Below are positions 37,750 through 58,928 of a stretch of DNA of 63,520 nucleotides, in pieces. The DNA is from an uncultured Prevotellaceae bacterium (lineage in GTDB: Bacteria; Bacteroidota; Bacteroidia; Bacteroidales; Bacteroidaceae): the NCBI GenBank assembly GCA_902778535.1, contig CACYYG010000016.1, positions 1 through 63,520 on the forward strand. The letters run 5' to 3'. Positions within the stretch are counted from its first letter, which is position 1, and every line of letters begins with the position of its first letter. A program made the translations under genes and the position numbers. The notes beneath the pieces are model-generated. The model worked only from the letters and a program-made list of their open reading frames with translations, had not been told where the DNA came from and ran no database searches.

Positions 37750-38367
37750 ATGAAGATTTTTGGTGTAGGAATGAACTACCTCCAGCATACGGAGGAATTG
37801 GACGGACGGGCTTATCGCCCCAGTGAACCTGTGATTTTTCTCAAGCCTGACTCGGCACTGCTGAAGGACGGTAAGCCGTTTTTCGTGCCCGACTGGGCCC
37901 GGCGCTTCGACTACGAGGCGGAGCTGGTGGTGCGTATCTGCCGCCTGGGTAAGGGCATTCCTGTGCGCTTTGCCCATCGCTATTGGGACGCTGTGACGGT
38001 GGGTATCGACTTTACGGCGCGCGATACACAAGAAAAGGCACGCCATGAAGGCATGCCTTGGACTATCTGCAAGGGCTTTGACGGGAGTGCAGCGATTGGG
38101 ACGTTTCAGCCTCTTAGCCTTGAAGGGAAAGGGGCTGGGATTGGTTTCCGTCTGGATAAAAACGGGGAAACGGTGCAGCGGGGCGACAGCAGTGAGATGC
38201 TGTTCAGTGTAGACGAGATTATCAGCTATCTCTCGCGCTTCTTTACATTGCGTACCGGTGACCTAATCTATACAGGAACCCCTGCAGGGATCGGGGCTGT
38301 GAAACCCGGCGATCACCTGCAGGGGTATATAGGTGAGGACTGTGTCCTTGACTTCTATTGCCGTTAG
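37750..38367 (+). CDS. Fumarylacetoacetate hydrolase-family protein
   Basis: About 205 residues. FAH-fold metal enzyme, probably hydrolysing or decarboxylating a 2-oxoacid; exact substrate cannot be read. I start at MKIFGVGMNYLQHTEEL, the conserved N-terminus; 17 codons further upstream are open but not family-like. Metal and active-site blocks: DYEAELVVRICRLGKGI (E-x-E type), GIDFTARDTQEKARHEG, KGFDGSAAIG and TGTPAGIGAVKPGD. The loop SLEGKGAGIG before FRLDKNGE is unusual for this family and its DNA (about 38109-38143) looks like a degenerate CCTT/AAGG palindromic element captured in frame. Overlaps the convergent PP2C gene by 4 bp. Confidence 0.88.
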   Translation: MKIFGVGMNYLQHTEELDGRAYRPSEPVIFLKPDSALLKDGKPFFVPDWARRFDYEAELVVRICRLGKGIPVRFAHRYWDAVTVGIDFTARDTQEKARHEGMPWTICKGFDGSAAIGTFQPLSLEGKGAGIGFRLDKNGETVQRGDSSEMLFSVDEIISYLSRFFTLRTGDLIYTGTPAGIGAVKPGDHLQGYIGEDCVLDFYCR

Positions 38368-39233
38368 CCGAACATTCTTTTCAGTATGCGGCTCAACAGT
38401 GAGGGCGGTGTGGCACGCTCGTCGTCGTCGCTGAGCAGTGAGGCGAGGACAATGCAGATATTGTCGTCGCCAGGCACGTCGAGGGCAAGCTGCTGCAGGC
38501 TGTTGGCACAGACGTCGATGTCGGCCTTGCTGTCGGCCATCACCTTGCTGATCATCTCGTTGGTGCAGTAGCCGCAGAGACCGTCGGAGCAGAGCAGGAA
38601 CATGTCGCCAGCCTTGACGTCAGTAACAGTGATGTCGGCCATTCCTGACGTGTCAAATTCGCCTAAGCCGCGCGTGATGACGTTGTTGTCGGGGTGGGTG
38701 AAAGCTTCCTCTTCAGTAATCTCCCCACGGTCGACGAGTTCCTGCACGTAGGAGTGATCCTTGGTGAGTGGCTGCAGACCTTTGTCGTTGTAGATGTAGC
38801 AGCGGCTGTCGCCACACCATGCTGTGTAGGCCTTGTCGCCTTTTACCCAGCAAAGCACGATGGTCGTGCCCATGCCTGCGGTTTCAGGATGGTCAATCAT
38901 GTGCATGTTGACGGCCTTGTCGGCATCCTTGATGGCTGTCGTCAGCAATTCGCAGATTTTTTGGTCGTCATTGGTGGCGTTCTCAATAGCCTTTGGCGAG
39001 AACGTGCGACTGATGCTGTCGATGGCCACGGCTGAGGCCACCTCGCCGGCATTGGCTCCACCCATGCCGTCGGCCACGATGAGCAGTGCGCCCTGTGACC
39101 CTAAGGGCAGATAGCCGCCGGTGTGCTTCTGGCGCCAGTCAGGGTCAGAAAGGTCAGGACAAAAGGCAAAAGCGTCTTCGTTGTTTTCTCGGTTGCAGCC
39201 TACGTCGGTTGTCGCGCTGATATTGATTTTCAT
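38364..39233 (-). CDS. PP2C-family Ser/Thr protein phosphatase
   Basis: 289 residues, cytoplasmic, metal-dependent. All PP2C motifs are present: TTDVGCNRENNEDAFAF (metal Asp), LLIVADGMGGANAGEVAS, GTTIVLCWVKGDKAYTAWCG with GDSRCY, MFLLCSDGLCGY and DDN near 250. It removes phosphates placed by a Ser/Thr kinase, and the kinase is encoded two genes upstream in the same run. Last gene of the conjugation/baseplate operon, 18 bp after the 596-residue gene. The final 20 residues (LLSRILKRMFG) may be an amphipathic tail. Confidence 0.93.
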   Translation of the reverse strand: MKINISATTDVGCNRENNEDAFAFCPDLSDPDWRQKHTGGYLPLGSQGALLIVADGMGGANAGEVASAVAIDSISRTFSPKAIENATNDDQKICELLTTAIKDADKAVNMHMIDHPETAGMGTTIVLCWVKGDKAYTAWCGDSRCYIYNDKGLQPLTKDHSYVQELVDRGEITEEEAFTHPDNNVITRGLGEFDTSGMADITVTDVKAGDMFLLCSDGLCGYCTNEMISKVMADSKADIDVCANSLQQLALDVPGDDNICIVLASLLSDDDERATPPSLLSRILKRMFG

Positions 39234-39251
39234 GATGCCGTTCCTTTGTAA

Positions 39252-40997
39252 TTAGAATTTTATATTCGGAGTCGGTTTCGGTTGTGCAACCACAGTCACC
39301 TTGTGTTGTTTTTGGCGAGTAGGCGGTTCGTAGGTCACATCAAAAGCGTAGTCGGATGGCGGGCATCCTTCTTCCTCAACACGGACGACAATGGTGTTTT
39401 TGCCTTTTTTCAGTTCTGGCACTGTGCATTCATAGCGCGTGTCCATGATTTTTGTCATTTCATACTCCAGTTCATTGGAAACCAATGAGGGATGGAAGGG
39501 ATAGACTTCCGTGTCAGACTCACGTTCAGTTTCGATTTTTACGATGAAGGTAAGTTTAGAGCCTGAAAGAACGACGTCCTTCTCATCGACGGTGACGGCG
39601 AAGTATTTAGAGTGCCATGCCTTGCCTCTTACATCCATTTCGCGTGTGCGCAATCCCTGATAGACGATGTTTACGGGATAGATGACGGTCCTTGGGTCTT
39701 CCGTAATGTTATAAGGACATTCCAGTTTACATTTGTACTCCACATAGCTGCCGTCAGTGTTGTTCCTTGCTACCTTGGAGAGCTTGTCAATATAGCAGCC
39801 CGATTCGGGATCTATTTCAAAGCTGGTCTCTTCGGCATTGATATAGGCCGGCATATTCAGACGGATTTTAGTGTTGAAATACTTATGGCGGAAGCCCATA
39901 TCCTTGTCGTCGTTGATGACGAAGTGAAAGCGGTCGTTGGCATTAACACGCAGCAGGCCCAGCTTGTCGTTCATGGTCACTAAGGCGATGTTGCCGTCAA
40001 TGCGGTTCACTTCGTCAATCTGTGGTGGCAGTATCTCTTCAAAGCCTAAATAGAGAGCATATTTGCCGCTAACCTCGTCTTTCACTTCTTTCAGGGTTGT
40101 CGGGGAACTTGTTTGGGTTGTAGCCTTTTTTTCGAATACGCGTTCCTCTTCACCCATTGTCATGCTGAGAGGCTTGTGGGTAATGGCATCGAATTTGATG
40201 TTGAAATGGTTCTTGCCGCACTTGCCTGTCATCATTTTGGTGCTGTCGTCTATCTGTACGAGGATCTTAGCAATGTCGCCGTCATCAGCGCGAGCCTGAT
40301 TCTTGATGTTGGTGTCGCCCGACAGGGGCAGTACAGGGCTCAGCTCGGCTGTGGCAGCATCGAAGTAGTAGAGCTTTTCTTTGTGTACGACGATTCCTGT
40401 GCCGTCATCGCCGACCGACGATATAAAGTTTATGTCGTTTGCAGCAAACTCCTTGCCTCCCCATGCCAGCTCCACTGGTTCCATGTCGGTGTCGAGCAGG
40501 ATATTTATCGGGTCTTTCATCTTGTGCAGTTGGGCGAAGGTGAAGCAGGCAGCGTAGCCATGAGAGAAGGGATAGGCGTGATAGTAGGGCTTTGGCTCAA
40601 CGCCTCCTTCGGGATCCATGTAATAGAAATAGTTGCCGTCGCTGATGAGCAGGAATCCGTCGTGGAAGAATGGATAGCCCCATCCCAGCTGCACGCGATC
40701 CTTGATGTCGGTCTTCTTTCCTGTGGTATCATAGATGGCAGTGACGTAAGCTGTCTCCGGGCGGGTTGACACTGCGTATCCCTCACTGAAGGAGTAGAGG
40801 TCGTCGCTGACTTTGGCCAGACACTTGCTGTTCATGTCCCAGATGTGACGGTTGAAGCCTTGCTGAGCCAGAATGACGTTGTTTTCAGGCAACACCTCAA
40901 TGTCATCATATTCGGGCGGCACAAGCCACTGTGCCACCTGTGCGTTAGCGTAGCCCAAGGAGAGCATCGCAAAAAGTAGACAAGTGATGTGTTTCAT
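39252..40997 (-). CDS. Secreted repeat protein between kinase and phosphatase
   Basis: About 581 residues. I start at 40997 (MKHITCLLFAMLSLGYANAQ, signal peptide); a frame 15 codons longer starts inside the end of the kinase gene. The first 230 residues repeat short W/G-rich beta units (QLGWGYPFFHDGFLLISDGN, YPFSHGYAACF), resembling WG-repeat or propeller-like proteins. The C-terminal third has Ig-like strands (NTIVVRVEEEGCPPSDYAF) and a Pro/Lys tail. No enzyme motif seen. Probably periplasmic. Its place between a membrane kinase with a periplasmic tail and the PP2C gene suggests a sensor or ligand for the kinase; inference. Confidence 0.65.
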   Translation of the reverse strand: MKHITCLLFAMLSLGYANAQVAQWLVPPEYDDIEVLPENNVILAQQGFNRHIWDMNSKCLAKVSDDLYSFSEGYAVSTRPETAYVTAIYDTTGKKTDIKDRVQLGWGYPFFHDGFLLISDGNYFYYMDPEGGVEPKPYYHAYPFSHGYAACFTFAQLHKMKDPINILLDTDMEPVELAWGGKEFAANDINFISSVGDDGTGIVVHKEKLYYFDAATAELSPVLPLSGDTNIKNQARADDGDIAKILVQIDDSTKMMTGKCGKNHFNIKFDAITHKPLSMTMGEEERVFEKKATTQTSSPTTLKEVKDEVSGKYALYLGFEEILPPQIDEVNRIDGNIALVTMNDKLGLLRVNANDRFHFVINDDKDMGFRHKYFNTKIRLNMPAYINAEETSFEIDPESGCYIDKLSKVARNNTDGSYVEYKCKLECPYNITEDPRTVIYPVNIVYQGLRTREMDVRGKAWHSKYFAVTVDEKDVVLSGSKLTFIVKIETERESDTEVYPFHPSLVSNELEYEMTKIMDTRYECTVPELKKGKNTIVVRVEEEGCPPSDYAFDVTYEPPTRQKQHKVTVVAQPKPTPNIKF

Positions 40998-41019
40998 ATA
41001 GTAGATGATGTTTGGTTTA

Positions 41020-42522
41020 TTAGAAGGTGGCGAGGCCGGCATCGATAATCTGTAGCAGACTGTCGTTTCCGGCTATGACGGCCCATTTGCGTGCGGTGAG
41101 CAGGAAATCCTTGCCCTCGGCAAAGTTTTTCTGATAGAGATTGTTGGGCATGACGTAATAGCAGGCAAAGCGGAAGGCAGCCTTGGCATTGATGTCGGCG
41201 TAGCTTGAGTCGTTAATCTCCTTGATTTTGACAAGATAGGCCATCGCTTTGTTGCTGTTATCCTTGTCGGTGGGCAGGAACTGGTTGTCCATTTCAATGT
41301 TGAGCAGTCGCTTGCGTTTGACTGACACTGAGTCGGAGAACCATCCGTAGGTGTAGGCCATTTCCCAGATGGCAGGCACATAGTTGGTGGCGCTCAGGCT
41401 GTCCATCATTGTAAGGCCGGCTCTGAGCGAGTCGGGATCATTGATGTCGATGAGGTGCATAGCCTCTGCATAGACCTCTTCTGGTGGACGGCGCTCGGCC
41501 TCTTCGGTAACAATCTGTACCTCGACTTCCGGCGAGCGCAGGAGCCATGTAAGCGTCACGCCGATAATCAGTGCGGCAAGGACGCTGAGGCCGATGATGA
41601 GTCCAGTCTTCTTGGGCTTCAGCGGATATTGATGGGCAGCAGTGGCGCGGCTGAGGTATTCTGCCGTGGGGCGCTTCTCGGGGTCGGGGTCAAGGCAGGC
41701 CGTGATGAGACGCTGCATGTCAACAGGAATTTCGGCAGGTATCTGCGGCATGGCCGTGGGGTCTTCCACCTGTGCCCAGCCGCCCTGCTCACCGAAAGGC
41801 ACGGCGCCGGTAATCATCTCGTAGAGCATGGCGCCATAGGCCCATACATCGCCGGCAGGACTGGGTTCGGCATCTTCGCGGTAGCGCTCGGGCGACATAT
41901 ACGCAAATGTGCCGCTGCGCTCTTCGTCCTCGAAGGTGTCGTGGTCGCTGGTGCCGCCTGACTTGGCGCTGATACCGAAGTCAGTGATGGAGTAGTTCAG
42001 GCTGTCATCAATGAGCACATTGCCCGGCTTGATGTCCTGATGGATGATGGGCGGCTCCAATGCGTGCAGGTAGGCGAGACCACCAGCCACGTCGGAGGCG
42101 AACTTCCATTTCGCCTCATCGTCTTCCAGCTTTCCGATGTAGCGTTCTGCCGAACCACGTTTGCAGTAAGGCAGGACGAGATAAGGCACTTCGTGGAAAA
42201 TGGAGAAATGGGTGGGGTGAATCAGGTTGGTGTGATGGCAGTTGAACACAATCATGTATTCCTCGCGGAAACGCTGCTCGCCCTCTATGTCGAGTGCATT
42301 CTGCGGACGGTATACCTTAATAGCCACGATGAGGCCCAGCTCTTCTATCTGTTCATCAGTGAGCTTGCGCAGGTCGCCCACGCTGTCTGGGTTATTCACA
42401 GTATTAAGGTCGAGTGCGAGCCATACGTCGGCAGTGCCGCCAGAGGTGCTGAGCGGACGGATCAGTCTGTACTTGCCATCAAAGGCCTTGCCATTGACAA
42501 TGTATTCTTTAATGTCTAACAT
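41020..42522 (-). CDS. Membrane Ser/Thr protein kinase (Hanks type)
   Basis: 500 residues. Kinase domain at about 18-290: degenerate Gly loop STSGGTADV (25-33), VAIK Lys69, HQDIKPGN with catalytic Asp163 and Asn168, DFG 181-183, SPE 210-212, DVWAYG 225-230. One transmembrane helix at 306-328 (GLIIGLSVLAALIIGVTLTW). The last 170 residues should be periplasmic and look helical, Sel1/TPR-like (YVPAIWEMAYTYGWFSD, AAFRFACYYVMPNNLYQKNF). The layout is that of a transmembrane sensor kinase. Gaps to neighbours are 12 and 22 bp. Likely substrates are operon products; the FHA-like domain in the RING protein is a candidate reader. Confidence 0.92.
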   Translation of the reverse strand: MLDIKEYIVNGKAFDGKYRLIRPLSTSGGTADVWLALDLNTVNNPDSVGDLRKLTDEQIEELGLIVAIKVYRPQNALDIEGEQRFREEYMIVFNCHHTNLIHPTHFSIFHEVPYLVLPYCKRGSAERYIGKLEDDEAKWKFASDVAGGLAYLHALEPPIIHQDIKPGNVLIDDSLNYSITDFGISAKSGGTSDHDTFEDEERSGTFAYMSPERYREDAEPSPAGDVWAYGAMLYEMITGAVPFGEQGGWAQVEDPTAMPQIPAEIPVDMQRLITACLDPDPEKRPTAEYLSRATAAHQYPLKPKKTGLIIGLSVLAALIIGVTLTWLLRSPEVEVQIVTEEAERRPPEEVYAEAMHLIDINDPDSLRAGLTMMDSLSATNYVPAIWEMAYTYGWFSDSVSVKRKRLLNIEMDNQFLPTDKDNSNKAMAYLVKIKEINDSSYADINAKAAFRFACYYVMPNNLYQKNFAEGKDFLLTARKWAVIAGNDSLLQIIDAGLATF

Positions 42523-42534
42523 TTATTATGTATT

Positions 42535-43521
42535 TTATTTGAGTTTCAGTTTTTCGCCAGGGTGCACTTTCTCCGACATATCCATGCGGTTCATCTTTGC
42601 CAGACTGGCAAGCTTGATGCCAAACTGCTGAGAGATGCCGTAGAGCGAGTCGCCCTCGCGTACAGTGTAGAAGTCCTTCGGACCGGTGAACTTCTTCTTC
42701 TTCTTGTCGAGGAAGACAATGTCGCCTTCGTGCAGTTCCTCTTCCACCACCACCTCGTTGAACTCCAACAACTGGTCTTTCGGGATGTCATATTGCATGG
42801 AGATGCTGGAGAGCGTTGTGCCAGGGTAGAGGATGGTGCAGGCCACATCGTTGATGTCGACAACATAGCGTGTGACAGCTTCTTTCACGGTCTGCTCTTC
42901 CTCGCTCTGCTCTTCCTCGTCCATGACGACGTCGTCGTCGAAAACGGGGGGCGCATTGTTTGCTGTCTGCCTGATGACGATGGTTTTACCTGCACGCAGC
43001 TTTACGCCGCCGTTGATGGCGTAGAGTCTGTAGGTGTCGATGAAGCCAATGAGGGCCACGGCGTAGTTCTTGGCCGTGGCATAGCCGCATTTTTGCAGAC
43101 CGATGGCCCAGCCGCGGTAGTCGTAGATGCTTTTCGTGAATAGCGAGCGGTATCGGGGAGCCAACAGCACTTTCGAGTGATCTTCAAATGAATCGGAAGC
43201 CGAGGCGTAGACACGGAAAGAACTCTTCTGCGGCTCATCGTCCCATGCCTTGTACACGCCGCCGCTCCAACCGCCCAAAGCCTTGATGCCAAAATGGTTG
43301 TTGGAGTTGCGTGTCAGACCGCTTTTGCCTGCACCGCTCTCGAGGATGCCCTGTGCGAGCGTAATGGGGGCGGGAATACCGTGTCTGCGTTCCTGCTCAA
43401 GCGCGATGCCTTTATACTTTTCAATATAAAGCAGAATGTCGCTTGCCGACTGCGCACGAGCAGAAACAACAAGAATTGACATCAATAGCGTCAGAAGGAA
43501 GGTGTGTATTTGTCTGTTCAT
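42535..43521 (-). CDS. GH73 glucosaminidase with LysM domains
   Basis: 328 residues, exported (signal peptide to about residue 23, SARAQ). Residues of about 25-165 are a GH73-type N-acetylglucosaminidase domain: IPAPITLAQGILESGAGKSG with catalytic Glu61, NHFGIK, FRVYASASDSFEDHSKVL, YRGWAIGLQKCGYATAKNYA. After an acidic linker come two LysM-like modules, at about 220-275 and 285-328 (FYTVREGDSLYGISQQFGIK), which bind peptidoglycan. It should cut glycan strands to let an envelope-spanning structure through the wall. The gene lies between the kinase and a PG-binding membrane protein with gaps of 12 and 21 bp. Confidence 0.9.
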   Translation of the reverse strand: MNRQIHTFLLTLLMSILVVSARAQSASDILLYIEKYKGIALEQERRHGIPAPITLAQGILESGAGKSGLTRNSNNHFGIKALGGWSGGVYKAWDDEPQKSSFRVYASASDSFEDHSKVLLAPRYRSLFTKSIYDYRGWAIGLQKCGYATAKNYAVALIGFIDTYRLYAINGGVKLRAGKTIVIRQTANNAPPVFDDDVVMDEEEQSEEEQTVKEAVTRYVVDINDVACTILYPGTTLSSISMQYDIPKDQLLEFNEVVVEEELHEGDIVFLDKKKKKFTGPKDFYTVREGDSLYGISQQFGIKLASLAKMNRMDMSEKVHPGEKLKLK

Positions 43522-43542
43522 TGTTACTTTTTATCTTTGAGG

Positions 43543-44760
43543 TTATCTGGCATGACCAGAAACTAAAGGGAATCCATTCTCGTCATAACCCATCTCATTC
43601 AACTCTTCCACAGTGTAGGCTTTGGGTACATCGGGATGCAGTGCTTCGTAGAGGGAGTCACCGAGATATTCGCCAACATTGCCTAAGCCAATCATAATCC
43701 AGTCGGCTATGCCCTTGTCGGTAAATCCCATGACAATGATATCAATAACAGCTACGACGATGGTAACGATAACTACGACAAGGCCTGCTGTGCCGGCAGC
43801 AACGCCAGCAGCAACCAAAGCAATACCAAGAAGTTCGGTGGCTGCCATGATGATAATGGAACCGATGAAACCCTTCATGTTGTCGAAGAATTTTCCCTTA
43901 TAATACTCGGTATCACCGCCCGTTACAGTGGCTACCATCCACATGATGAGGTAGTAGAGCATGGGAAGACCGGCAGTTACTATTCCTAAGACGCCACCTT
44001 TGCCGCCTCCTCTTTTCATGAACTTGGCAATCTCACCCTCAGGGTTGGCTTTTATGGCTTTTAACCATCTGTCTGCATGACGCTGTAGGGGCTTTGTAAT
44101 ATCATCGACTTTGGCGGCAACTATATTCCCGAGACGGGATACGTCATTAGCTACCATTTCGCAAAATGCATAGATTTTCGGAGATAAGTCTTTCAGCCTG
44201 GAGATGGCAGCATCTATCATCTTTTTCCCGATAGGCATATCCATCACTTCAGCAAGAATACCTCTGATGTCATTGCACAAGGCATAGAAATTGTCGGTGT
44301 AGTTCTTCTTGAAATATTCCAGCGTGAACCCCATGTCATCGCCGCCTTTGGGCGCCTTGTTGGCTGTCTCGGAAAAAGAATTGCCGCCGGAAGGACGATA
44401 CACCGGTGGACCTGCTGTGCAGTTGGCAATATCGCCGTAGCCTTGGTCAATATAGTTATAGTTGGGGTCATAGCATCTCGCTACACCGGGATTCGCCGAA
44501 TAGCCACGCTGACACTCATAGTATTTGGAATTGATAAGCGACTGAGTTCTTTCGTCTAAGTCACCAGATCCGACCTGACCCATGAAGACGCCTTGGAATC
44601 CCTTTACTGCATTGCGGGTGCGACGGCCAAAGACACCATCGGCATTGATATGATCCCAGCCGTAGTGGTAGGTGTTGCGAATGTAGTTCAGGCGATCCTG
44701 AAACACGTATATCTCGTTGCCACTCTCATAGGGAGGATTGTGATGGTATTTGTATTCCAT
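43543..44760 (-). CDS. Peptidoglycan-binding-domain membrane protein
   Basis: 405 residues without an N-terminal signal peptide. Residues of about 14-75 are a PG_binding_1-like domain (YVFQDRLNYIRN..., ADGVFGRRTRNAVKGFQGVF). A helical middle (EMVANDVSRLGNIVAAKVDD) leads to hydrophobic segments at about 253-275 and 290-345 (GIALVAAGVAAGTAGLVVVI), possibly a hairpin of three or four helices. The N-terminal domain would have to cross the membrane to meet peptidoglycan, so either it is inserted with the N-terminus out or it is delivered by the apparatus. It follows the TssF-like gene by 49 bp. Candidate roles are anchor or effector; undecided. Confidence 0.65.
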   Translation of the reverse strand: MEYKYHHNPPYESGNEIYVFQDRLNYIRNTYHYGWDHINADGVFGRRTRNAVKGFQGVFMGQVGSGDLDERTQSLINSKYYECQRGYSANPGVARCYDPNYNYIDQGYGDIANCTAGPPVYRPSGGNSFSETANKAPKGGDDMGFTLEYFKKNYTDNFYALCNDIRGILAEVMDMPIGKKMIDAAISRLKDLSPKIYAFCEMVANDVSRLGNIVAAKVDDITKPLQRHADRWLKAIKANPEGEIAKFMKRGGGKGGVLGIVTAGLPMLYYLIMWMVATVTGGDTEYYKGKFFDNMKGFIGSIIIMAATELLGIALVAAGVAAGTAGLVVVIVTIVVAVIDIIVMGFTDKGIADWIMIGLGNVGEYLGDSLYEALHPDVPKAYTVEELNEMGYDENGFPLVSGHAR

Positions 44761-50540: not shown

Positions 50541-52895
50541 TTATGATTCTACATATTCAAAGATGGTGTCGCCAATCTTGAATGTGTCGCCGTTGGTCAG
50601 CACAGTAGGCTTGTTGGCAGGCAGCTCGGTGCGCATGTTGTAGAGCACACCAGGCACGAGGGCTTTCAGCATAGGCAGCGTCTTGGCCTGGTCGATGTAG
50701 AGCTGTACATGCTCCTTGGCCACCTTGTTGCTCTTCTCCCAGTTCATCTGCACCTCGCAGTCGCCCGTGGCACCGATGGTCACCTTGTTGCCGCCGCCAG
50801 TGGCGTTCATCCACTTGTGGATAGGTATCTTCTGACCAGCCTTCACACCGTTCTTGATGAGCAGGAAGTAACGCTCTGCCAGCATACGTACTGTGACGAG
50901 TGAAGCGCCCAGGCCGCCGCCGTAGATAATGAAGTTGAGCAGGTTAGGCATCCACTCGATGTTACCAATGGAGCCAAACATGAGTACGAAGAAGCCGATG
51001 ACGGCTGCAATGAGACCGCCGATTAAGGCGCTCTTCATGGGAATGGACGACTTGATGGTGAGGCTCAACGGCACGCAGACCGAGAAGAGGATGTAAGCAG
51101 GCAGTGAGCAGTACCAGTAGGGAGTGCCTGTGGCTGACACCAGCAGGCAGAAGATAATGCCGCCCACGGCCATGGCTGCCATACCGATGATACCTGAGAG
51201 TAGTGACATGCCCACAATCTTCAGGTAGATCTTGGCGTCCTTCTTACGATATTCGTCGAAGTAGCGGAAGACGAGCGAGAGGAAGAAACCCAAGAGCAGA
51301 CCGATGGTGAGCAGTGCTGACACCTTAACGGCGCTTTCGCCTATCAGGCTCTTATTGCTGATAAAGGCATTGGCGATGCCTTCGCCCAGTCCCTGGAACA
51401 AACCGCGACCTGTCAGCTCGAAGATAATCCAGCTCACCAGTGCGGCCAAAATGCCGGCGAGTGTCTGCGAGGTCTCGCGAAGTGAAGTCTTTGAGAACAT
51501 CTCCTTCCACTCCACGTGATCCTGAATGCCGTCCTTACAGTTCTGTCCGTACTCCACGCACTTGTAGCCGTTCTGCTGCCAGCAGGCCACGTGCATGATG
51601 TGCTTACACTTCATCACTACCATCTGTCCGGGTTCGATATCCTGACGGCAGTAGGTGCAGATGCGTCGAGAGACGTTGGCCTCCGGCTCGTACTTTTTGT
51701 AATACTTCATGCCGAAGCGCTTCGACTTGATAGAGGGCACGAGCACCTTCATAATGAGGAAGAAGATGGCAAATGTTAGCAGTGCGATGAGCAGTGCCAC
51801 GAGTATCTTTGTGATGGTGTCACCCGTTGACTCAGCCTTGACAGGCCACGGTGTCTCAGGCATGCCGATAGCGAATTCTCCCTCGCCGGTTTTTGCTCCT
51901 TTCCACTCGGCGGTGTATTTGACCAGGCCGTTGTAGACCTTGTCCTTCGTTGCGCGATAAGAGAAGGCGAAGTCGTACATGGCATCCTTCACCACCTGCT
52001 CGAAGTTGCTCAGCACGCTGGCCAGGTTGTCGCTGGGCATGTACATGCCCTGACGGTCTTCGATGAAGTCGCCATTGGCATCGCGCGGTGCAGTAACGGC
52101 ATCCAGCATCATTTCTACACCCTCGTCAACGCCTTCGCCAGTGTAGTAGAGCGCATACACCTTCGGCATCAGCGTGGCGGCCTTTTGGTAGTCTTCCACT
52201 TCAATGAAAGAAATTACTTCATCGGTAGGACGTGTATTACCCTCAGTGAAGACAAAGAGCAAGTTCTTGTCCTTGGCGGCAATGGCGCGACGGGCGATGG
52301 CTGCGTTGCGCTCATAGCCGGCTGCCATGTGCACAGAGTCTTCGAACTCGGCCTTGTCACTGGCAAACTCTACCAGCTTGGAATAGAGTGCGCCATAGAA
52401 GAATTTGCTCTCAGACTGCTTATGAAATTCCTGTTCGAAGTCCTTGAAGTTCTTCTTTGTCACCATTTGTGTGGGTGTCACCTCATCGCCGAAGAACGAC
52501 AGGAAGACGCAGCTGTCGGGCGCACTCTCCACCAACTGACCCACAGCGTCGAAAATCTGATCCTTGCCCTCCTCGGGAATGCTCAAGTCGACGAGCACGG
52601 AGAATGTAAAGCCCGGGGGGATGCGCTGGCCGGAATTTACTGAGGTAAACAAGTAGCGTTCGGGCGAGATGATGTTGTCATCCTCTTTGATGACCAGATA
52701 GTCACTCAGATTGTCTGTGGTGACGTCATCGCACGACTTGCCATTACTGTTCAGAACTTTCAGGAACAGCGTGATGCTGTCCTTGCCTTCGGCATATTCG
52801 TATTTCTTGTCACAGAACTCAATTTTCTTTACGTCCTGCGCGTTCACCTGTGCCAAGCTGGCCAGCAGGGCACATCCTAATAGTAGTTTCTTCAT
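50541..52895 (-). CDS. Polytopic membrane protein with VWA, RING-H2-like and FHA-like domains (candidate E3)
   Basis: 784 residues. Signal peptide to about residue 19, then a VWA-like domain at about 97-270 (FTFSVLVDLSIPEEG; partial MIDAS Asp103-x-Ser105). Helix at 361-387, then a cytoplasmic RING-H2-like finger with ligands Cys413, Cys416, Cys430, His432, His435, Cys438, Cys446 and Cys453; spacing fits RING-H2 except the last pair, which is C-x6-C. Five or so more helices lie between 476 and 672. The end (704-784) is FHA-like (VTIGATGDCEVQMNW, VLTNGDTFKIGDTIFEY), but the phosphothreonine-binding Arg and Ser look replaced. It shares one base (TAATG) with the JAB gene. Inferred role: membrane E3 that recruits E2-Ubl to the apparatus. 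Confidence 0.82.
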   Translation of the reverse strand: MKKLLLGCALLASLAQVNAQDVKKIEFCDKKYEYAEGKDSITLFLKVLNSNGKSCDDVTTDNLSDYLVIKEDDNIISPERYLFTSVNSGQRIPPGFTFSVLVDLSIPEEGKDQIFDAVGQLVESAPDSCVFLSFFGDEVTPTQMVTKKNFKDFEQEFHKQSESKFFYGALYSKLVEFASDKAEFEDSVHMAAGYERNAAIARRAIAAKDKNLLFVFTEGNTRPTDEVISFIEVEDYQKAATLMPKVYALYYTGEGVDEGVEMMLDAVTAPRDANGDFIEDRQGMYMPSDNLASVLSNFEQVVKDAMYDFAFSYRATKDKVYNGLVKYTAEWKGAKTGEGEFAIGMPETPWPVKAESTGDTITKILVALLIALLTFAIFFLIMKVLVPSIKSKRFGMKYYKKYEPEANVSRRICTYCRQDIEPGQMVVMKCKHIMHVACWQQNGYKCVEYGQNCKDGIQDHVEWKEMFSKTSLRETSQTLAGILAALVSWIIFELTGRGLFQGLGEGIANAFISNKSLIGESAVKVSALLTIGLLLGFFLSLVFRYFDEYRKKDAKIYLKIVGMSLLSGIIGMAAMAVGGIIFCLLVSATGTPYWYCSLPAYILFSVCVPLSLTIKSSIPMKSALIGGLIAAVIGFFVLMFGSIGNIEWMPNLLNFIIYGGGLGASLVTVRMLAERYFLLIKNGVKAGQKIPIHKWMNATGGGNKVTIGATGDCEVQMNWEKSNKVAKEHVQLYIDQAKTLPMLKALVPGVLYNMRTELPANKPTVLTNGDTFKIGDTIFEYVES

Positions 52896-54715
52896 TATTG
52901 TCTTACTTGTTTAATCCATGTTTTTAATACTTCCATTCTCTGCTCGCCGTAGAAGGTGTTCTCAACGACTAAGTCGCCATTCACCACGGGAATTGTAGTG
53001 AGCAGGCTGTCGCTTGGCGTGTAGACGAGAACGAAGTGTATGCGGTCGAGATAGTCCTGCACGGCGCGGCGCACGGTGGGTATGCTGCAGTGCGGAGCTG
53101 CCACGAAGCAGCCGGTAAGGCTGAGGTTGTCTTCCTTGTCTTTGTCCGAGATCTTCTCAGCCACATACTCCGTCTTCTGCCCGTGCTGTACGGCAAAGCC
53201 GTGGAGCATGGCCAGCACGTCGTCGCCCTCGGTGGCCAGATCCATGCAGATGTCTACGATGACATCCTTGTTCAACTGTACACCATGGCAGCTGTCGTCA
53301 CGGTCTTCTGCCTTCTCCAGCGTGTTGAAGTATTCGTCGGCGCTTAGCTCTTTCTGGTTGGCTCCGACAGGGCGTTGTGCGGCAGTCTTAAGACTCTCCT
53401 GTGCCCACTGGTACCACTCAATGAGCGAGTACATCTTCTTCAGTTCGCTCTTCGAGTTGATATTCATGTCGCGGCGATAGGTGAAGATGCCCGTGTCCTG
53501 CATCGGGGTGAGAATGTCGACGACGATGGCGGTAAGGAAGAGCGGATGCTGCGGATGCTTCAGCTGGTCCTGAACCGACGTGTCGCTGTTGCTGAAGAAC
53601 ACGCCCAAGCCTGGATGTGAGTGCACCCAGCAGGTAAGGTCGTACTGCAGATTGGTCTCGCGGCGCAAGCGGCGCAGCTCCTCCAGCACCTTCAGCTTGA
53701 TCTTGCCGCCGAAATTCAGGGCATACTCCTCGAAGACGGCGTCGTCGCCCGGCATCACAATCTGCTCTAATGAGACATAGTATTCATTGTTCTCTGTGTC
53801 ATGCACCCAGCGGCCTAACACCATGCAGCCGTCCTCCTTCGGACTTTGAGGGTTGCGCAGGTCTTCCGCGTACATATTATATATATCTATGATGCACTGG
53901 TTCTTGATGTACATGCGACGTACAGCACTTTCATAGGTGAAGTCGACGGCGTCAACTTGCAGATAGTTGGGATTGTCTATGACATCCTCAAGGCTTTGCT
54001 TCTTCAGAATAGTGGCTGTCTTGCGGCGCACCACGATGTTGCCGTCAGCTGACACCTGCTGGCCTGGGGTGATAGGAGCGCGGTAGCCAGGCTTGGGGCC
54101 GCGTGGCGTCACAGGAGCGGGCTTGTAGCCATTGTTCTTCTTTCCCTTGTTCTTGCTGATGACGGCAATGATGAAGATGAGGAGGAGCAGTCCGCCGGCA
54201 ATGGCACCGATAAGTGGCCAGGGCAGTTCCTTTCCGCTTTCCTCTTTTACTTCCATCTCGTTGGTCAGCCTTGTCAGGTTTTTGTCCAGCAAATTGAGTT
54301 TGCCGTTGAGCACCTCTTCCATCTGGTTGCGGAAGTCGACACTGGCCTGGGCGTCAAGCTCGGGATAGTTTTGAAGAATGGCTTGTATGAAGAGGTCTTT
54401 CTTTTCATTTTGTTCCTGCAGCTGCAGTTTCAATCCCTCAACATACCCGTTTAACTGACATTTCTGTATATATTCAGCCTTGTCCTTGCGGTTGAGCAAA
54501 TCATCGATATACTTTGCTATCTCGTTATTCAGATTTTGCTGGTTCCTGTCCGAGAAGAAGGGGTCGTCCTGCAGTTTTTGCTGGAAGGCTTCCATCACGG
54601 TAGGCTTTGGCGGCTCTTGCACTTGCCTCCTTGGTCTGGCAGCATCTGCCCCCGGCTGCACAGCCGGAGTAAGGAGCAGCACTATGAAAAGTGCTAATGC
54701 TTGAATCTTTCTCAT
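52895..54715 (-). CDS. Membrane-anchored JAB/JAMM isopeptidase
   Basis: 606 residues. Signal peptide to about 26, a periplasmic helical/coiled-coil part (40-160), one transmembrane helix (166-187), a Lys/Pro linker, then the cytoplasmic JAB domain (about 265-420). The metal site is complete: HSHPGLGVFFSNSD gives H365-x-H367-x10-D378, with an upstream Glu (YYVSLEQIV) in the usual place. Such enzymes cut isopeptide bonds or mature ubiquitin-like proteins. After residue 470 a further domain (NKDVIVDICMDLATEGDDVL, HFVLVYTPSDSL) has no clear match. Start chosen because it gives a clean signal peptide, 19 bp after the preceding gene. Confidence 0.9.
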   Translation of the reverse strand: MRKIQALALFIVLLLTPAVQPGADAARPRRQVQEPPKPTVMEAFQQKLQDDPFFSDRNQQNLNNEIAKYIDDLLNRKDKAEYIQKCQLNGYVEGLKLQLQEQNEKKDLFIQAILQNYPELDAQASVDFRNQMEEVLNGKLNLLDKNLTRLTNEMEVKEESGKELPWPLIGAIAGGLLLLIFIIAVISKNKGKKNNGYKPAPVTPRGPKPGYRAPITPGQQVSADGNIVVRRKTATILKKQSLEDVIDNPNYLQVDAVDFTYESAVRRMYIKNQCIIDIYNMYAEDLRNPQSPKEDGCMVLGRWVHDTENNEYYVSLEQIVMPGDDAVFEEYALNFGGKIKLKVLEELRRLRRETNLQYDLTCWVHSHPGLGVFFSNSDTSVQDQLKHPQHPLFLTAIVVDILTPMQDTGIFTYRRDMNINSKSELKKMYSLIEWYQWAQESLKTAAQRPVGANQKELSADEYFNTLEKAEDRDDSCHGVQLNKDVIVDICMDLATEGDDVLAMLHGFAVQHGQKTEYVAEKISDKDKEDNLSLTGCFVAAPHCSIPTVRRAVQDYLDRIHFVLVYTPSDSLLTTIPVVNGDLVVENTFYGEQRMEVLKTWIKQVRQ

Positions 54716-54734
54716 AGGTTATTTTTTTGCGTTG

Positions 54735-56261
54735 TTATTTGTTGCTATCGGGCGTTCCAGGCTTGCGCCAGCGCTTGTACTTGGCAGGGATGACATCGTT
54801 CATTGACTGCTTCTGCGGTTTGACGGTGATGTCGAGACCTGCATTCTGAGCCGAAGTCATGCCAGCTGCGGCTCTCACCTCACTGGCTTTTCTCAGCGGG
54901 CGCTTGCCGGGTGTGGCAGGAGCTGCAGGAGCAGCTGTACCAGCAGGGGCTGCCGGTGCAGCAGGAGCAGCAGGAGTGGTCGGTGAAGCCGGTGGTGCTG
55001 TGGGAGCAGCAGCCTTGCCACCGCCTCCTTTCGTCAACGCCGCCAGTTTTTCCTTAGCAGCATTGCCCTCAGCAGTCATTTTCTTGTTCGCCTCTTTCTT
55101 CAGCATCTGGTTCACCTCTTGGCCCAGCGGGTTGTTCTCCATACCAGGGATGTTGATATGTCCCATGGCCTGCTGCTGTGCCTTGTTGAGGTTGTCCATC
55201 ATCATGCGCTGCATCTTGTTGTTCTTGATGGTCTGGAAGATCTGCTTGCCGAACATCAGCAACATGCCCACGCCGGCAATACCGCCAATCATCCACATCA
55301 TGCCTTTCTTCTCCTCGCTGGCTTCTTTCTTCTCGGCAGCTTGGATGGAGTCCTGCTCTTGCTTCTGCCTATTGGCTATGGAGTCGGTGGCTCTCTTTGC
55401 AGCTTCTTCTTCGGTCTTTTTATCTACGGCTGCCTTATCCTCCAGTTCAGCCTTTTTCTTGTCGTAGGCGGACAACACATCGCTAATTTCCTGCACTACT
55501 TCCATGTCAGAGATCTTGCTACGCAAATCACGCAGGTGGTTGGCCAGGTAGGTAAGGTCTTCAGGTAATGGAAGCTTTGTGACCTCTTTGAGCTGATTCT
55601 TCACATTGGCGATGGTAAGCATGGCGTCGTCAATAGGCGTCAGTCCTTCGTCGGAAATCTCTTCGCTCATAATGATGTCGTCAGCATTGGCAGCCCTGTC
55701 GTCTCCGGCTCTGGCGCTGCTGCCGCCACCACTTCTGTGCGACCTGCCACCTCCGCCGCCTGTCACCTTTGTAGAGAATTCCAAGTATTTACTACACTTG
55801 CTGAACAACTTGTAGTGGCGTTTCTTCTCATAGTGTGCGATGTAGACGGGGATAGAAATCTGCACCTCACTGCTGGTGGTGAATGTCAACTGCGGGTTGT
55901 CGCCCAAGAGGAAGAATCCGTCCTCTGACGGGGTGTAGCTGACACCGGAAGGAATCATAAAGGCCTCGGGCGTCATGCCTTCGAACTTCGTGTCGTTATA
56001 TGTGCCGGTGCGGTCGAAGATGGCTACAGCCACCTCGTCCAGCTTGCGGTATTTACGCTGGTTGGCAGAACCCAGTTTCTTCTGCACGTTGGTGAAGAGC
56101 ACTGTGGTCTTTCCTCCGCTCTGCGAGATGGTATAGCTGAGGATGAGGCGGTCGCCGTCCGACGAAAAGAGCGTGTCGACAACGTCTTTCGCCTGGACAG
56201 TACCGGTACATCCTAATGCGCAGAGCCCGACAGCCAGCTGTGTGAGCCTCTTGTTCATCAT
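54735..56261 (-). CDS. Membrane protein with periplasmic beta domain, coiled coil and Ala/Pro-rich cytoplasmic tail
   Basis: 508 residues, unknown family. Signal peptide (MNKRLTQLAVGLCALGCTGT, up to about 24). Residues 25-165 look beta-rich (DRLILSYTISQSGGKTTVLF). Then a Gly/Ser linker (168-182), helices and a charged coiled coil (AELEDKAAVDKKTEEEAAKR), one transmembrane helix (about 320-340), a Met-rich amphipathic stretch (KMQRMMMDNLNKAQQQAM) and a low-complexity Ala/Pro tail at about 410-460, ending in basic KYKRWRKPG. Same topology as the JAB protein: periplasmic sensor part, one helix, cytoplasmic C-terminus. Overlaps the following gene's start by 4 bp. A scaffold or conjugation target is conceivable. 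Confidence 0.65.
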   Translation of the reverse strand: MMNKRLTQLAVGLCALGCTGTVQAKDVVDTLFSSDGDRLILSYTISQSGGKTTVLFTNVQKKLGSANQRKYRKLDEVAVAIFDRTGTYNDTKFEGMTPEAFMIPSGVSYTPSEDGFFLLGDNPQLTFTTSSEVQISIPVYIAHYEKKRHYKLFSKCSKYLEFSTKVTGGGGGRSHRSGGGSSARAGDDRAANADDIIMSEEISDEGLTPIDDAMLTIANVKNQLKEVTKLPLPEDLTYLANHLRDLRSKISDMEVVQEISDVLSAYDKKKAELEDKAAVDKKTEEEAAKRATDSIANRQKQEQDSIQAAEKKEASEEKKGMMWMIGGIAGVGMLLMFGKQIFQTIKNNKMQRMMMDNLNKAQQQAMGHINIPGMENNPLGQEVNQMLKKEANKKMTAEGNAAKEKLAALTKGGGGKAAAPTAPPASPTTPAAPAAPAAPAGTAAPAAPATPGKRPLRKASEVRAAAGMTSAQNAGLDITVKPQKQSMNDVIPAKYKRWRKPGTPDSNK

Positions 56262-57340
56262 AGGCCTTGTATGCGGTTGTAGCGTTCTATGATCTTGTTC
56301 TTATAGTCACCGCCACTGCGCCAAGCTGAAGCATGTTTGGAGCACTTCGGGTCGGTGCAGCAATTGTACATGCCGTTCACCTGACCGATGACGCTGGCCT
56401 TGGTGGCTGCGCGGTCGCTGCTGGTGTAGATCTTCTTGTAGAGGTCGTCCAGCTTGTGGTAGATCTGCTGCAGCGAAAGGTTGCAATAAGCGCATGAGTG
56501 AGGAGGAACTGGGTCAGAACGGTGTGGCCGGCAGATGCCTTCCTGCTTGCTCAGGTCAATCTTGGCAAGATCCTCTTTGATGGCGTTGTAGCGCTGGTAG
56601 CCGCCGTCGCTTGCGTTCCAGCCGTGAGCACTGATGGCAGCGTCAATCTTAGCCTTCAGGTCGTTGATGCGCTTCAGGTACGGTTCTTTCTGCTGCTCCA
56701 CGCCAGGACGGTGTTTATTGCTTGTGCAGAAGACGGCATTGTCCACATCCTTCTTCAGTTTCTTGCACTCATCCACCAAGCCTAAGTATTCGGCACTGGG
56801 CTTCAGCTCCACAGTGATGTCGAGCTCGATGACCTGCTTGCGCAGCAGCAGCAGCTTCTCCTTGCCCAGGATGCGCTCCACGATGCCGCTCTTTGGCTTG
56901 CTCAGGTAGATAGGCAGCTTGACGGCCATCTCAGAACCGGCAGGGGCGTTGAAGGCTGCCAGCTGGTATTTGTTCGAAGGCTCGATAAACACATCCTGCC
57001 CTGTCTCAAGGTTGTAGGGGTCGATGATGCGTTTGCCTTTCGTGCCGCCGAAGAGCTTGTCATACTTGAACGAGGGGCGCAGCTTCTTCACCTCTTTCTC
57101 CTTGTAGGGTTTGTGGAAGAGGGCGAGAATCTTCTGCTCGTCGAGGTTCTCTATCTCAATAAGCACCTGTCCGAATTCGTCGTCGCTGTCAGGGTTCAAC
57201 AGCGTGACGAAGATGTTGCAGTACGACAGGTTGATCGTCTCCTTCGTGTTGTCGTTGCTCAGGGTTATTTTCTTCTGCTCATCAGCCCAGGTCGTCATCG
57301 CCATCAGGAAGAAGAACATGCATATAAAAATCTTTTTCAT
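56258..57340 (-). CDS. Secreted protein with C-terminal Cys/His-rich domain
   Basis: About 360 residues. I start at 57340 (MKKIFICMFFFLMAMTTWAD, signal peptide); a longer frame adding MKIEKLET only translates the microsatellite before it. The first 200 residues are beta-rich (KETINLSYCNIFVTLLNPDS, DVFIEPSNKYQLAAFNAPAG, VIELDITVELKPS), similar in style to the beta domain of the neighbouring 508-residue protein. The C-terminal part carries EGICRPHRSDPVPPHSCAYC and later YNCCTDPKCSKHASAW, a spacing of Cys and His that suggests a zinc-binding treble-clef or a disulfide-linked fold. Periplasmic location would favour disulfides. Not recognised as a known family. Confidence 0.65.
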   Translation of the reverse strand: MKKIFICMFFFLMAMTTWADEQKKITLSNDNTKETINLSYCNIFVTLLNPDSDDEFGQVLIEIENLDEQKILALFHKPYKEKEVKKLRPSFKYDKLFGGTKGKRIIDPYNLETGQDVFIEPSNKYQLAAFNAPAGSEMAVKLPIYLSKPKSGIVERILGKEKLLLLRKQVIELDITVELKPSAEYLGLVDECKKLKKDVDNAVFCTSNKHRPGVEQQKEPYLKRINDLKAKIDAAISAHGWNASDGGYQRYNAIKEDLAKIDLSKQEGICRPHRSDPVPPHSCAYCNLSLQQIYHKLDDLYKKIYTSSDRAATKASVIGQVNGMYNCCTDPKCSKHASAWRSGGDYKNKIIERYNRIQGL

Positions 57341-57341
57341 C

Positions 57342-57402
57342 GTTTCCAATTTTTCAATCTTCAATTTTTCAATTCTTCAATTCTTCAATTCTTCAATTCT
57401 TC
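57342..57402. repeat. (TTCAATTC)n microsatellite in front of a start codon
   Basis: About five TTCAATTC octads plus degenerate TTTTTCAATC units, filling the spacer between the E2 stop and the next gene's start. Confidence 0.75.
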
Positions 57403-58069
57403 AGATGCTCAGTGAGATGCGCTTCTTGGGCTGCTCATCGGTAGCCGACGTTGCCGGTGCTGCCGGAGCGGGCTTGGGAGCCGCATCCTCAGGCATCTCT
57501 TGTGTGAACTTCACCCATCCGTTGGGTTCGCCTTCCTCGCGCACCCATTCGGCCACGCTCTGGTCCTCGGGGTAGGGGTAGGTGTTCTGGGCGTGATACA
57601 TGTTGTACTTCAGGTAGCGCTCCACGCGCAGCACCAGGTCCTTGATCGAGGCCAGCACGCCCATCTCCTTGATGGTGAGGCACACGTGGCCCTTGAACGA
57701 GCCGCTGTAGCGGATGTTGGGATGCCACACGTCGCTGATGAAAGTGAAGACGGGATTGCCGTCGGCCGACGGGTAGTTGTTGGGCAGCACGATGCTCATC
57801 TTGTGCAGATAGCCGAAGACGGGCTTGCGGGGAGGCTCAGTATCCTCCACGCCGACGATGCTCTTACAGCGATACCAAATCTCAAACTCAGTGGGCAGGC
57901 CGGTAGCATTCTTCTTGCGGATGATGTACGACAATGATGGCTTCAGCGGGTTTTTACTCTCCTGCTTGCGCTTGCTGCACAGTGAGTCCAGCTCTTTCCA
58001 CTCCTGAAAGAGGCGTGCGTCACGTCCTTTCAGTTCCTTTAGGTTAAAGTTGTTTATTGCGGGATTCAT
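57401..58069 (-). CDS. E2-like ubiquitin-conjugating enzyme
   Basis: 222 residues, cytoplasmic. UBC fold with the key line of the family: PVFTFISDVWHPNI, then FKGHVCLTI. His116-Pro117-Asn118 is the HPN motif, and Cys130 is the catalytic Cys twelve residues after Asn118. The N-terminal helix is LKGRDARLFQEWKELDSL, and strands EFEIWYRCKS and GYLHKMSIVLPNNYPSADGN match the strand-to-PxxYP region of eukaryotic E2s. After the core (to about 175) comes an acidic, then Ala/Pro-rich tail (residues 190-215) ending KKRISLSI. It receives the ubiquitin-like protein from the E1 encoded seven kb downstream in the same operon. Confidence 0.9.
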   Translation of the reverse strand: MNPAINNFNLKELKGRDARLFQEWKELDSLCSKRKQESKNPLKPSLSYIIRKKNATGLPTEFEIWYRCKSIVGVEDTEPPRKPVFGYLHKMSIVLPNNYPSADGNPVFTFISDVWHPNIRYSGSFKGHVCLTIKEMGVLASIKDLVLRVERYLKYNMYHAQNTYPYPEDQSVAEWVREEGEPNGWVKFTQEMPEDAAPKPAPAAPATSATDEQPKKRISLSI

Positions 58070-58072
58070 ATT

Positions 58073-58233: not shown

Positions 58234-58235
58234 CG

Positions 58236-58562
58236 CTATCCTGCGATGGGCACGCTGATGAGGTGCAGGTGGTCCATGGGCTCAATCTCATAGTCAATGA
58301 GCGCCATCTCGCGACCGTTCTCATCTTCAAACTCCAAAATGACAGGCTCCTCGTCGCCATCCATCAGCTTGCCGAGCAAATACTGGATAGGGTTGCCGCC
58401 GTTGTCCATCTTCGGCAACTCAAACACCTGTATAATACTGTTAATCTGGTCGCGGATGGTTTTGTTGGGGTCGGTCACTTTAACTTCAATTTCGTCATAC
58501 GACGTACCGTCAATGGTGAGCATGACGATAAATTCTTCCCGATAAAATTCCTGATCTGTCAT
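58236..58562 (-). CDS. Ubiquitin-like protein with C-terminal glycine
   Basis: 108 residues. Pattern of a beta-grasp (ubiquitin-like) protein: strand FIVMLTIDG, strand EIEVKVTDPN, helix KTIRDQINSIIQVFEL, then strands YLLGKLMDGDEEPVILEFED, a NGREMALIDYEIEPMDHLHL segment equal to the ubiquitin Leu-rich end, and the tail ISVPIAG. The chain ends exactly at a single Gly, so no proteolytic trimming would be needed before activation. Length is slightly above ubiquitin because of an N-terminal extension and an insert after the helix. The direct E1/E2/JAB neighbours make it the likely modifier. Gap to the preceding gene is 39 bp. Confidence 0.82.
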   Translation of the reverse strand: MTDQEFYREEFIVMLTIDGTSYDEIEVKVTDPNKTIRDQINSIIQVFELPKMDNGGNPIQYLLGKLMDGDEEPVILEFEDENGREMALIDYEIEPMDHLHLISVPIAG

Positions 58563-58601
58563 AGTTGTTCGTATTTTTTATTGTTATTATCTATAGTGAT
58601 G

Positions 58602-58928
58602 TTAGGCTATGTAGCTGTTCATGTGGGCAATGACGTCTATCTGACCTCTTGCCGATGACTTCATTGCGGTAAGCTTGCTTTTGAAGTAGGCTTTGCCTTC
58701 CACCCCCGACGGATTACCTCCAGTGGCATCGTAGATGTGGAACTGCACCTTTTTGTCGGAACCGTCGAAGAACACCATGAAGTTGCGGATGGCATCGAAA
58801 CAATATTCTCTGCTTCCTGAGCAAATAGCACGGTTGCGGTCTTTCACTTCAACACTGTCCTTGCTGGAAACGACAATGTTCAGGCTAAGATTGCGCTGTG
58901 CAAAATCTATACTTGCAAATCTGTTCAT
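58602..58928 (-). CDS. Small protein of unknown function, first gene of the conjugation operon
   Basis: 108 residues, no signal peptide or membrane segment. I do not recognise it. The sequence suggests an alpha/beta fold with strands LNIVVSSKDSVEVKDR, FMVFFDGSDKKVQFHIYDA and IDVIAHMNSYIA around a short helix (REYCFDAIRNF). A promoter with perfect elements stands 35 bp upstream. Being first in the operon and next to the modifier, it could be a regulator, a second modifier-fold protein or the principal target; none can be chosen from sequence. Confidence 0.7.
   Translation of the reverse strand: MNRFASIDFAQRNLSLNIVVSSKDSVEVKDRNRAICSGSREYCFDAIRNFMVFFDGSDKKVQFHIYDATGGNPSGVEGKAYFKSKLTAMKSSARGQIDVIAHMNSYIA

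Follow-up and report, generated by a model that had tools for sequence, protein, structure and literature searches.

Ubiquitin-like conjugation in bacteria is known from operons such as Bil, Bub, and CBASS Cap2/Cap3, which contain an E1, an E2 with an HPN motif and a Cys, a ubiquitin-like protein (Ubl) with a terminal Gly, a JAB protein, and a RING protein; prokaryotic RING/E2/JAB sets were reportedly also presented by Burroughs in 2011. To our knowledge, bacterial Ubl cascades with E2 or RING parts are either anti-phage or of unknown function. In type VI secretion systems (T6SSs) of subtype i, a threonine phosphorylation pathway consists of PpkA, PppA, and Fha, and extracellular contractile injection systems (eCISs) lack ClpV and TssK. 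Here, a T6SS locus that includes a set of ubiquitin-like cascade genes is described from a stretch of 63,520 nucleotides (the window) at the start of a 242-kb contig (CACYYG010000016.1, assembly GCA_902778535.1) of an uncultured Prevotellaceae bacterium. No publication joining ubiquitin-like conjugation with T6SS or contractile injection as a machine part was found in the open literature searched by titles, abstract starts, and term counts, and a T6SS with a built-in ubiquitin-like cascade is apparently new within that literature; an earlier description is possible.

The locus resembles the T6SSs of subtype iii (GA1-GA3, with TssNQOPR) in its TssB/C, Hcp, VgrG, ClpV, and TssE/F/G/K-like genes. 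However, TssN, TssO, and TssR were not found in the genomes searched that carry this E2, TssC falls in a separate clade, and Ubl, E1, E2, RING, and mostly JAB genes are present together with a kinase, a PP2C phosphatase, and an FHA-like domain of the locus' own. The Bil/Bub/CBASS-type operons likewise have E1, E2, Ubl with a terminal Gly, JAB, and RING, but here they form part of a T6SS locus, RING and JAB are predicted to be membrane proteins, and the RING protein also has vWA and FHA-like parts. The membrane Ser/Thr kinase, PP2C, and FHA-like domain recall the T6SS-i pathway, from which this locus differs in carrying the FHA-like domain within the RING protein. A related Ubl module adjoins an eCIS locus in two genomes (G264 and G358); unlike an eCIS, the machine of the window has ClpV and TssK-like genes, as expected of a T6SS.

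The facts collected from sequence support the conclusion that the ubiquitin-like cascade is a regular part of one T6SS clade, found in Bacteroidales from gut and rumen. In a family set of 201 genomes, the window's own included, E2 was detected in six, and in each of these E1, TssG, Ubl, and T6SS genes were seen in the regions read. Named genomes, when scanned, yielded 72 E2 loci, apparently from Bacteroidota; these were annotated with profiles built here, and five of them lie on contigs that appear identical to those of the five other E2 genomes of the family set. T6SS core genes occur in 69 of these 72 loci, the other three being the short contigs L016 and L086 and locus L065, and within each locus all labelled genes are on one strand. 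Where E1 was detected (65 loci), TssG follows in 62; the exceptions are L057 (contig end), L065, and L083 (a VgrG-labelled gene in between). The initial annotation of this DNA had named as its own refutation that baseplate-like genes are never next to E1/E2 genes elsewhere, and this is not the case.

Two main gene orders are observed. In order A, PAAR and cargo genes are followed by Ubl, E2, SP368, TM508, JAB, RING, E1, TssG, TssK, and TssE, while order B runs PAAR, E1, TssG, TssK, TssE, TssF, Ubl, E2, two unrecognised genes, and RING, without JAB. One locus, L080 (designated I), has an intermediate order, also without JAB. Many of the 72 loci come from metagenome-assembled genomes of related rumen and gut taxa and are not 72 independent events; the split between A and B, at about 40% E2 identity, is stronger evidence for the link than the locus count. 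Carriers include Xylanibacter muris PMUR, Palleniella intestinalis PINT, Barnesiella sp. An22, and Parabacteroides distasonis An863.

In the window, 17 open reading frames of the ORF list, all on the - strand as initially annotated, span 38364-58928 (Table 1). The gaps between them, from -26 to 166 bases, had been called tiny, which is slightly generous, with 132 bases between E1 and RING and 166 between E2 and Ubl. They form the distal end of a T6SS locus that continues outside the window: past its end, the - strand continues with DUF4280 (which we take to be PAAR-like), a 309-aa protein, VgrG, an Hcp-coiled-coil protein, Hcp, TssC, TssB, ClpV, and a NusG-like gene, the first of the run. Gaps in this outer part are 9-127 bases, except for 479 between DUF4280 and the 929-aa gene and 262 between DUF2931 and H108. 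Judged from strand and spacing, the whole run is probably a single transcript, in which Ubl, E2, two envelope proteins, JAB, RING, and E1 sit between the spike and the baseplate genes. The NusG-like gene (L002:13762-14487) precedes ClpV, and the same placement is seen in L011 and L014.

Table 1. Features of the T6SS locus, with positions in the window
Feature	Position	Strand	Basis or remark
Ubl, 108 aa, end ...VPIAG	58236..58562	-	C-terminal Gly; distant homology
E2-like conjugating enzyme, HPN 116-118, Cys130	57401..58069	-	Pfam UQ_con, PDB profile
SP368, predicted exported, without Pfam family	56258..57364	-	N-terminal hydrophobic stretch by eye only; labelled in A-type loci
TM508, one transmembrane segment (TM) 320-338, S(L/M)NDxI tail motif	54735..56261	-	Hydropathy
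JAB/JAMM protein, hydrophobic N-terminus, TM 168-186	52895..54715	-	JAMM residues, Prok-JAB
RING protein: vWA fold 92-307, TM 364-382, RING 413-453, five further hydrophobic segments, FHA-like C-terminus	50541..52895	-	
E1-like adenylating enzyme with C-terminal extension	49032..50408	-	ThiF 7e-48
TssG-like baseplate protein	48164..49057	-	BLASTP 2.6e-4 to L104
TssK-like baseplate protein	47156..48160	-	TIGR03353 6.9e-5, below cut-off; BLASTP 1.8e-6 to L104
TssE/gp25-like protein	46665..47159	-	TIGR03357 3.2e-4, PF04965 2.5e-5, both below cut-off; BLASTP 7e-5 to L104
TssF-like baseplate protein	44810..46606	-	BLASTP 2.8e-6 to L104
Peptidoglycan-binding-type domain with C-terminal TMs	43543..44760	-	PF01471 5e-6; hydropathy
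Glucosaminidase with two LysM	42535..43521	-	PF01832 4e-31, PF01476 3e-16
Membrane Ser/Thr kinase, TM 306-324	41020..42522	-	PF00069 2e-39; hydropathy
WG-repeat protein	39252..41042	-	PF14903 1.9e-8
PP2C phosphatase	38364..39233	-	PF13672 2.5e-14
H108, probably variable cargo/immunity region	58602..58928	-	Labelled in only some loci; role inferred
DUF2931, candidate immunity protein	59191..60234	-	PF11153 1.2e-7; role inferred from position
929-aa protein, one TM 441-459, candidate effector	60231..63020	-	No Pfam family; role inferred from place after PAAR

The genes by which a T6SS is recognised, namely TssB/C with ClpV, Hcp/VgrG/PAAR, and TssE/F/G/K, all appear to be present. TssC passes the Pfam TssC model PF17541 (4e-128), ClpV has AAA domains, and TssB has no Pfam match; against L104, the classical Bacteroidota T6SS locus of genome G080, TssB, TssC, and ClpV gave BLASTP values of 2e-18, 1e-115, and 8e-138. 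The tube, spike, and tip are represented by matches to TssD (Hcp, 1e-32), Phage_GPD (VgrG, 3e-16), and DUF4280 (5e-27). A further Hcp domain lies at the C-terminus of a 1084-aa protein (L002:5418-8672) whose N-terminal part is an apolipoprotein-like coiled coil; its matches in other loci differ in length. In a BLASTP search against a small set of 29 proteins, the TssE, TssF, TssK, and TssG of the window each match their positional counterpart in L104, where the order is E, F, (TssN), K, G. By family models, the TssK-like match (NCBIfam, like that of TssE) covers residues 4-199, Pfam TssF matches 2 of 11 TssF relatives (best 0.0036), and TssG has no family-model match and a weak fold match. The gp25/TssE-like and other baseplate-like proteins of the initial annotation are thereby recovered, and its injection machine is a T6SS, the genes for sheath, tube, spike, and ClpV being located just past the end of the window.

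The catalytic residues of the cascade are strongly conserved. In E2, His116-Pro-Asn and Cys130 are unchanged in all 73 rows (72 loci and the window); its profile matches E2-25K/UBE2K at 5.8e-8 in a PDB profile search, and Pfam UQ_con reaches 1.4e-5, below the curated cut-off. The E2 C-terminus is SLSI in at least 30 of the 72 loci. E1 has a ThiF domain by Pfam, and its Cys143, 185, 188, 204, and 323, candidates for the catalytic Cys, and its His326 are kept in 65 of 65 rows reaching them (one row is cut off). With regard to Ubl, the terminal Gly is found in 69 of 70 loci with a Ubl, taking the best copy per locus; the sole exception (L029, 9641-9979) runs past the Gly and ends AGGSKK. The window Ubl has no Pfam match of its own and its profile reaches only about 0.007-0.15 against single-ubiquitin PDB chains, while a relative from another family, in L108, matches YukD (1.3e-5, slightly short of the cut-off) and ubiquitin (8.9e-4), which indirectly supports a beta-grasp fold via distant homology. 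Ubl chains get no support because no Lys is invariant in 14 aligned Ubls.

JAB and RING are conserved in the same manner. The JAB motif H365-x-H367-x10-D378 (HSHP...D) is kept in all 55 rows reaching it (one row is cut off); Pfam Prok-JAB matches the window protein at 0.0042, below cut-off, and the homologue in L108 matches JAB at 2.8e-8. The RING pattern, C413-x2-C416-x13-C430-x-H432-x2-H435-x2-C438-x7-C446-x6-C453, retains all eight ligands in 69 of 69 rows, and the Pfam RING match is 8e-4, below cut-off. A RING usually ends in a C-x2-C pair; here the last pair is C-x6-C. The intact E2 site, E1 adenylation domain, Gly-ending beta-grasp protein, JAMM site, and RING-H2-like finger proposed at the outset have been upheld, the beta-grasp fold indirectly, while the envelope-anchored assembly joined to the cascade is borne out in part, in that the cascade genes lie in the T6SS operon and RING, JAB, and further proteins are envelope proteins as predicted by hydropathy. 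All 14 TM508 tails inspected carry S(L/M)ND(A/V)I, and a short motif is common to the juxtamembrane region of the window JAB (QSLEDVI) and the TM508 tail (QSMNDVI). As a shared cytosolic docking motif it is a tentative lead; a strict pattern was present in 34 of 55 JABs and 5 of 56 TM508s.

In the family set, the distribution of TssN does not overlap that of E2. Among the 201 family genomes, TssC was detected in 16, TssN above cut-off in 5, and E2 in 6; all E2 and all TssN genomes fall within the 16, and TssN and E2 never occur together. TssN thus exceeded its cut-off in none of the six E2 genomes, two of which (G006 and G034) are only 83% and 79% complete. TssO and TssR were found in all five TssN genomes, in none of the six E2 genomes, and in none of the three K-type genomes tested; TssP and TssQ were not searched for. 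The window's own genome has a weak TssN match of 21.4 bits, which does not reach the cut-off; it falls in a 691-aa frame on C34, in a stretch with no recognised gene, and was judged to be chance. It was reported in PMC10781749 that tssN lies systematically between the TssK and TssG genes; in the window, no gene separates the two. The same survey found the membrane complex or a part of it in all 443 subtype-iii systems, a rule on which the Ubl-bearing clade touches, as none of the three parts tested (TssN, TssO, and TssR) was found. Among 395 genomes of the phylum, TssC was detected in 25 and TssN exceeded its cut-off in 23, with 22 genomes having both, and E2 was detected in 3; TssC without TssN was seen in the window's genome, G013, and the very divergent G223, and G291 has a TssN match over cut-off and no TssC match.

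Five TssC genomes of the family set have neither E2 nor TssN (G013, G168, G196, G041, and G098). Three of them, G013, G168, and G196 (loci L095, L099, and L097, respectively), are referred to as K-type: their T6SS comes with kinases and with an FHA/zinc-ribbon protein, the latter scanned in G013, and no Ubl module was seen in the regions read. L095 contains an M23 peptidase with a Tsi6-like neighbour, the FHA/zinc-ribbon protein, two kinases, and a peptidoglycan-binding TM protein. In a TssC tree of 48 rows, with a midpoint root and some long branches, the A, B, I, and K systems group together (support 98/88), A joins K (100/97), and the TssN-type systems (N) form one group (77/81), so that, at the level of the TssC sequence, Ubl-bearing systems are set apart from TssN-type ones. 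G041 groups with the K-type, and G098, cut by a contig end, falls within A. B and I are joined in the E1 tree (100/96), and I lies among B rows with little support in the E2 tree; neither tree contradicts A versus B+I. The simplest scenario is that the common ancestor of A, B, I, and K already had the module, which K then lost, the alternative being gain on two branches. Residue 45 of TssC is Lys in 26 of 28 Ubl-bearing systems, whereas all 4 K-type rows and 14 of the 15 TssN-type rows (one gene is counted twice among the 15) have Glu there. As a candidate attachment site, Lys45 was not retained: Arg takes its place in the two B rows, and the pattern may be a lineage signal.

Outside this clade, G264 and G358 carry, on one contig with an eCIS locus, PAAR, an NTPase-like gene, E1, Ubl, E2, JAB, and a vWA/RING/FHA protein (related loci L108, L114-L115 and L109, L116-L117), with an eCIS-core protein and PAAR beside the module in G264. 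In these eCIS loci, PAAR, the eCIS-core protein, and gp25 are Pfam matches, while the sheath, tube, LysM, and VgrG genes were identified by visual reading in G264 and by BLASTP matches in G358. TssC gave no match in either genome, but its model was positive in none of that search's four genomes, although it was positive in other scans.

It appears to us to have about an even chance of being correct that this is a T6SS clade with a membrane-anchored cascade, gated by kinase, PP2C, and FHA, which tags a baseplate, tip, or cargo protein at docking and replaces TssNQOPR. The sequences show tail and baseplate-like genes in one run with Ubl, E1, E2, and RING, a JAB in most loci, and conserved catalytic residues, and TssN, TssO, and TssR were not detected; conjugation, the candidate target, and replacement of TssNQOPR by the module's membrane proteins are what we infer. 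Briefly, the RING protein would be placed in the inner membrane with an exported vWA domain, a TM, a cytosolic RING, more TMs, and a cytosolic FHA domain, and the JAB protein would also be located there. RING, JAB, SP368, and TM508 would form or assemble the docking complex, the role of TssNQOPR elsewhere. Ubl would be charged by E1 at its terminal Gly and then carried on E2; the RING protein would position it for the tagging, at the membrane and in the course of docking, of a baseplate, spike-tip, or cargo protein, JAB would take the tag off, and the kinase, PP2C, and FHA would turn tagging on or off. A bolder version, tentative and on balance doubted by us, is that the vWA-RING-FHA protein is both docking scaffold and E3, that inner-membrane docking is built or licensed by covalent Ubl modification in place of TssNQOPR, and that the same kind of module was recruited to eCIS in a distant lineage; if this is true, ubiquitin-style tagging and phage-tail-like machines share a recurrent and old partnership.

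Several observations weigh against the docking-linked tagging proposed above. Among the 64 loci with Ubl, E2, E1, and RING, JAB is present in 52 and missing from all 12 that are of order B or L080. The K-type systems, sister of A by TssC, show neither E2 nor TssN, and therefore systems lacking TssN can rely on something besides the Ubl module. In the eCIS-linked relatives, the RING has lost several of its ligands. In G592 (L139-L140), with the order E1-Ubl-E2-698 aa-JAB-JAB-RING/FHA-type and a 1212-aa gene with a weak E1 match, no eCIS gene was recognised in 47 kb (near a contig end) and TssC had no match. L065 (499-18317) has an A-type Ubl module without TM508; its neighbours are two FHA proteins, of which one has a trypsin-like domain, together with WG, an S41 peptidase, and LysM/porin-like genes; no Tss gene was seen in the locus and no TssC in the 2.0-Mb assembly. 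Together with the two eCIS-linked genomes, L065 and G592 argue against exclusivity of the T6SS link. They also suit the rather improbable view that the Ubl module is an independent envelope regulator (vWA/RING/FHA, with outer membrane protein and FHA partners), recruited mainly for co-regulation and not acting on the T6SS, with the proviso for G592 and L065 that the TssC model was positive in none of the four genomes of that search. However, T6SS genes occur in 69 of 72 loci, the E1-TssG coupling is kept across A and B, an eCIS is the neighbour in a third lineage, and L065 looks like a late departure because the E2 tree places it within A.

An unlikely but more serious competitor is that Ubl tags effectors or the effector-bearing tip for loading and that JAB strips the tag before firing. 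In order A, the Ubl gene comes after the variable region behind PAAR, and in 3 of 70 Ubl loci a second copy without terminal Gly adjoins that region upstream of the main Ubl (L050:8710-9633, L052:5050-5769, and L063:8094-8477), fused in L050 and L052 to about 200 and 130 further residues of a kind that was not recognised. These fused copies may instead be recombination scars at the Ubl gene, and in order B the gene follows TssF, away from PAAR. That E1, E2, and Ubl form a non-covalent scaffold, as proposed for the Ubl domains of EccD and TssN, is very unlikely, as a scaffold would not need the E2 Cys and HPN, the RING ligands, the JAMM site, and the terminal Gly, all of which are kept; the idea gains from the ubiquitin-like domain of TssN, which was proposed to dock the baseplate (PMC10781749), and from the fact that TssN was not found here. 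Least probable of all, in our estimation, is the chance presence in the T6SS operon of an anti-phage conjugation system (Bil, Bub, or CBASS-like). The bacterial E1/E2/JAB/Ubl sets of known role are indeed anti-phage, yet of ten proteins scanned with PADLOC models (Bil, CBASS, and others) E1 alone gave a match, which covers its adenylation domain, and the nine others gave none; no phage or plasmid record with E2 was found at E 1e-3 in two collections, and the recurrence with T6SS genes in 69 of 72 loci also counts against this view.

These results suggest that ubiquitin-style tagging serves in bacteria to build or control a machine for protein injection. The cascade, whose catalytic residues are conserved, is linked to a single machine that is easily assayed (killing or Hcp secretion), and named strains carry it, which makes the purpose and substrate of a bacterial Ubl directly testable questions, with the K-type systems as a natural control for what replaces the Ubl module.

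At the distal end of the run, the wall hydrolase, Ser/Thr kinase, and PP2C noted from the start have clear Pfam matches (glucosaminidase/LysM, kinase, and PP2C). The glucosaminidase, kinase, WG, and PP2C genes recur in G113 and G122, while G033 has two kinases and a glucosaminidase, and neither PP2C nor WG was matched in the part read; of the relatives compared for tail genes, G122 alone gave a match to the peptidoglycan-binding-type gene. These genes would be in line with switching by phosphorylation, by analogy with the threonine phosphorylation pathway known from other T6SSs. In addition, a separate part of the window (1176-10770 and 26267-28234) contains SusD-like, TonB-dependent receptor, and fasciclin genes and a cyclomaltodextrinase-type alpha-amylase, and resembles an ordinary polysaccharide-use region.

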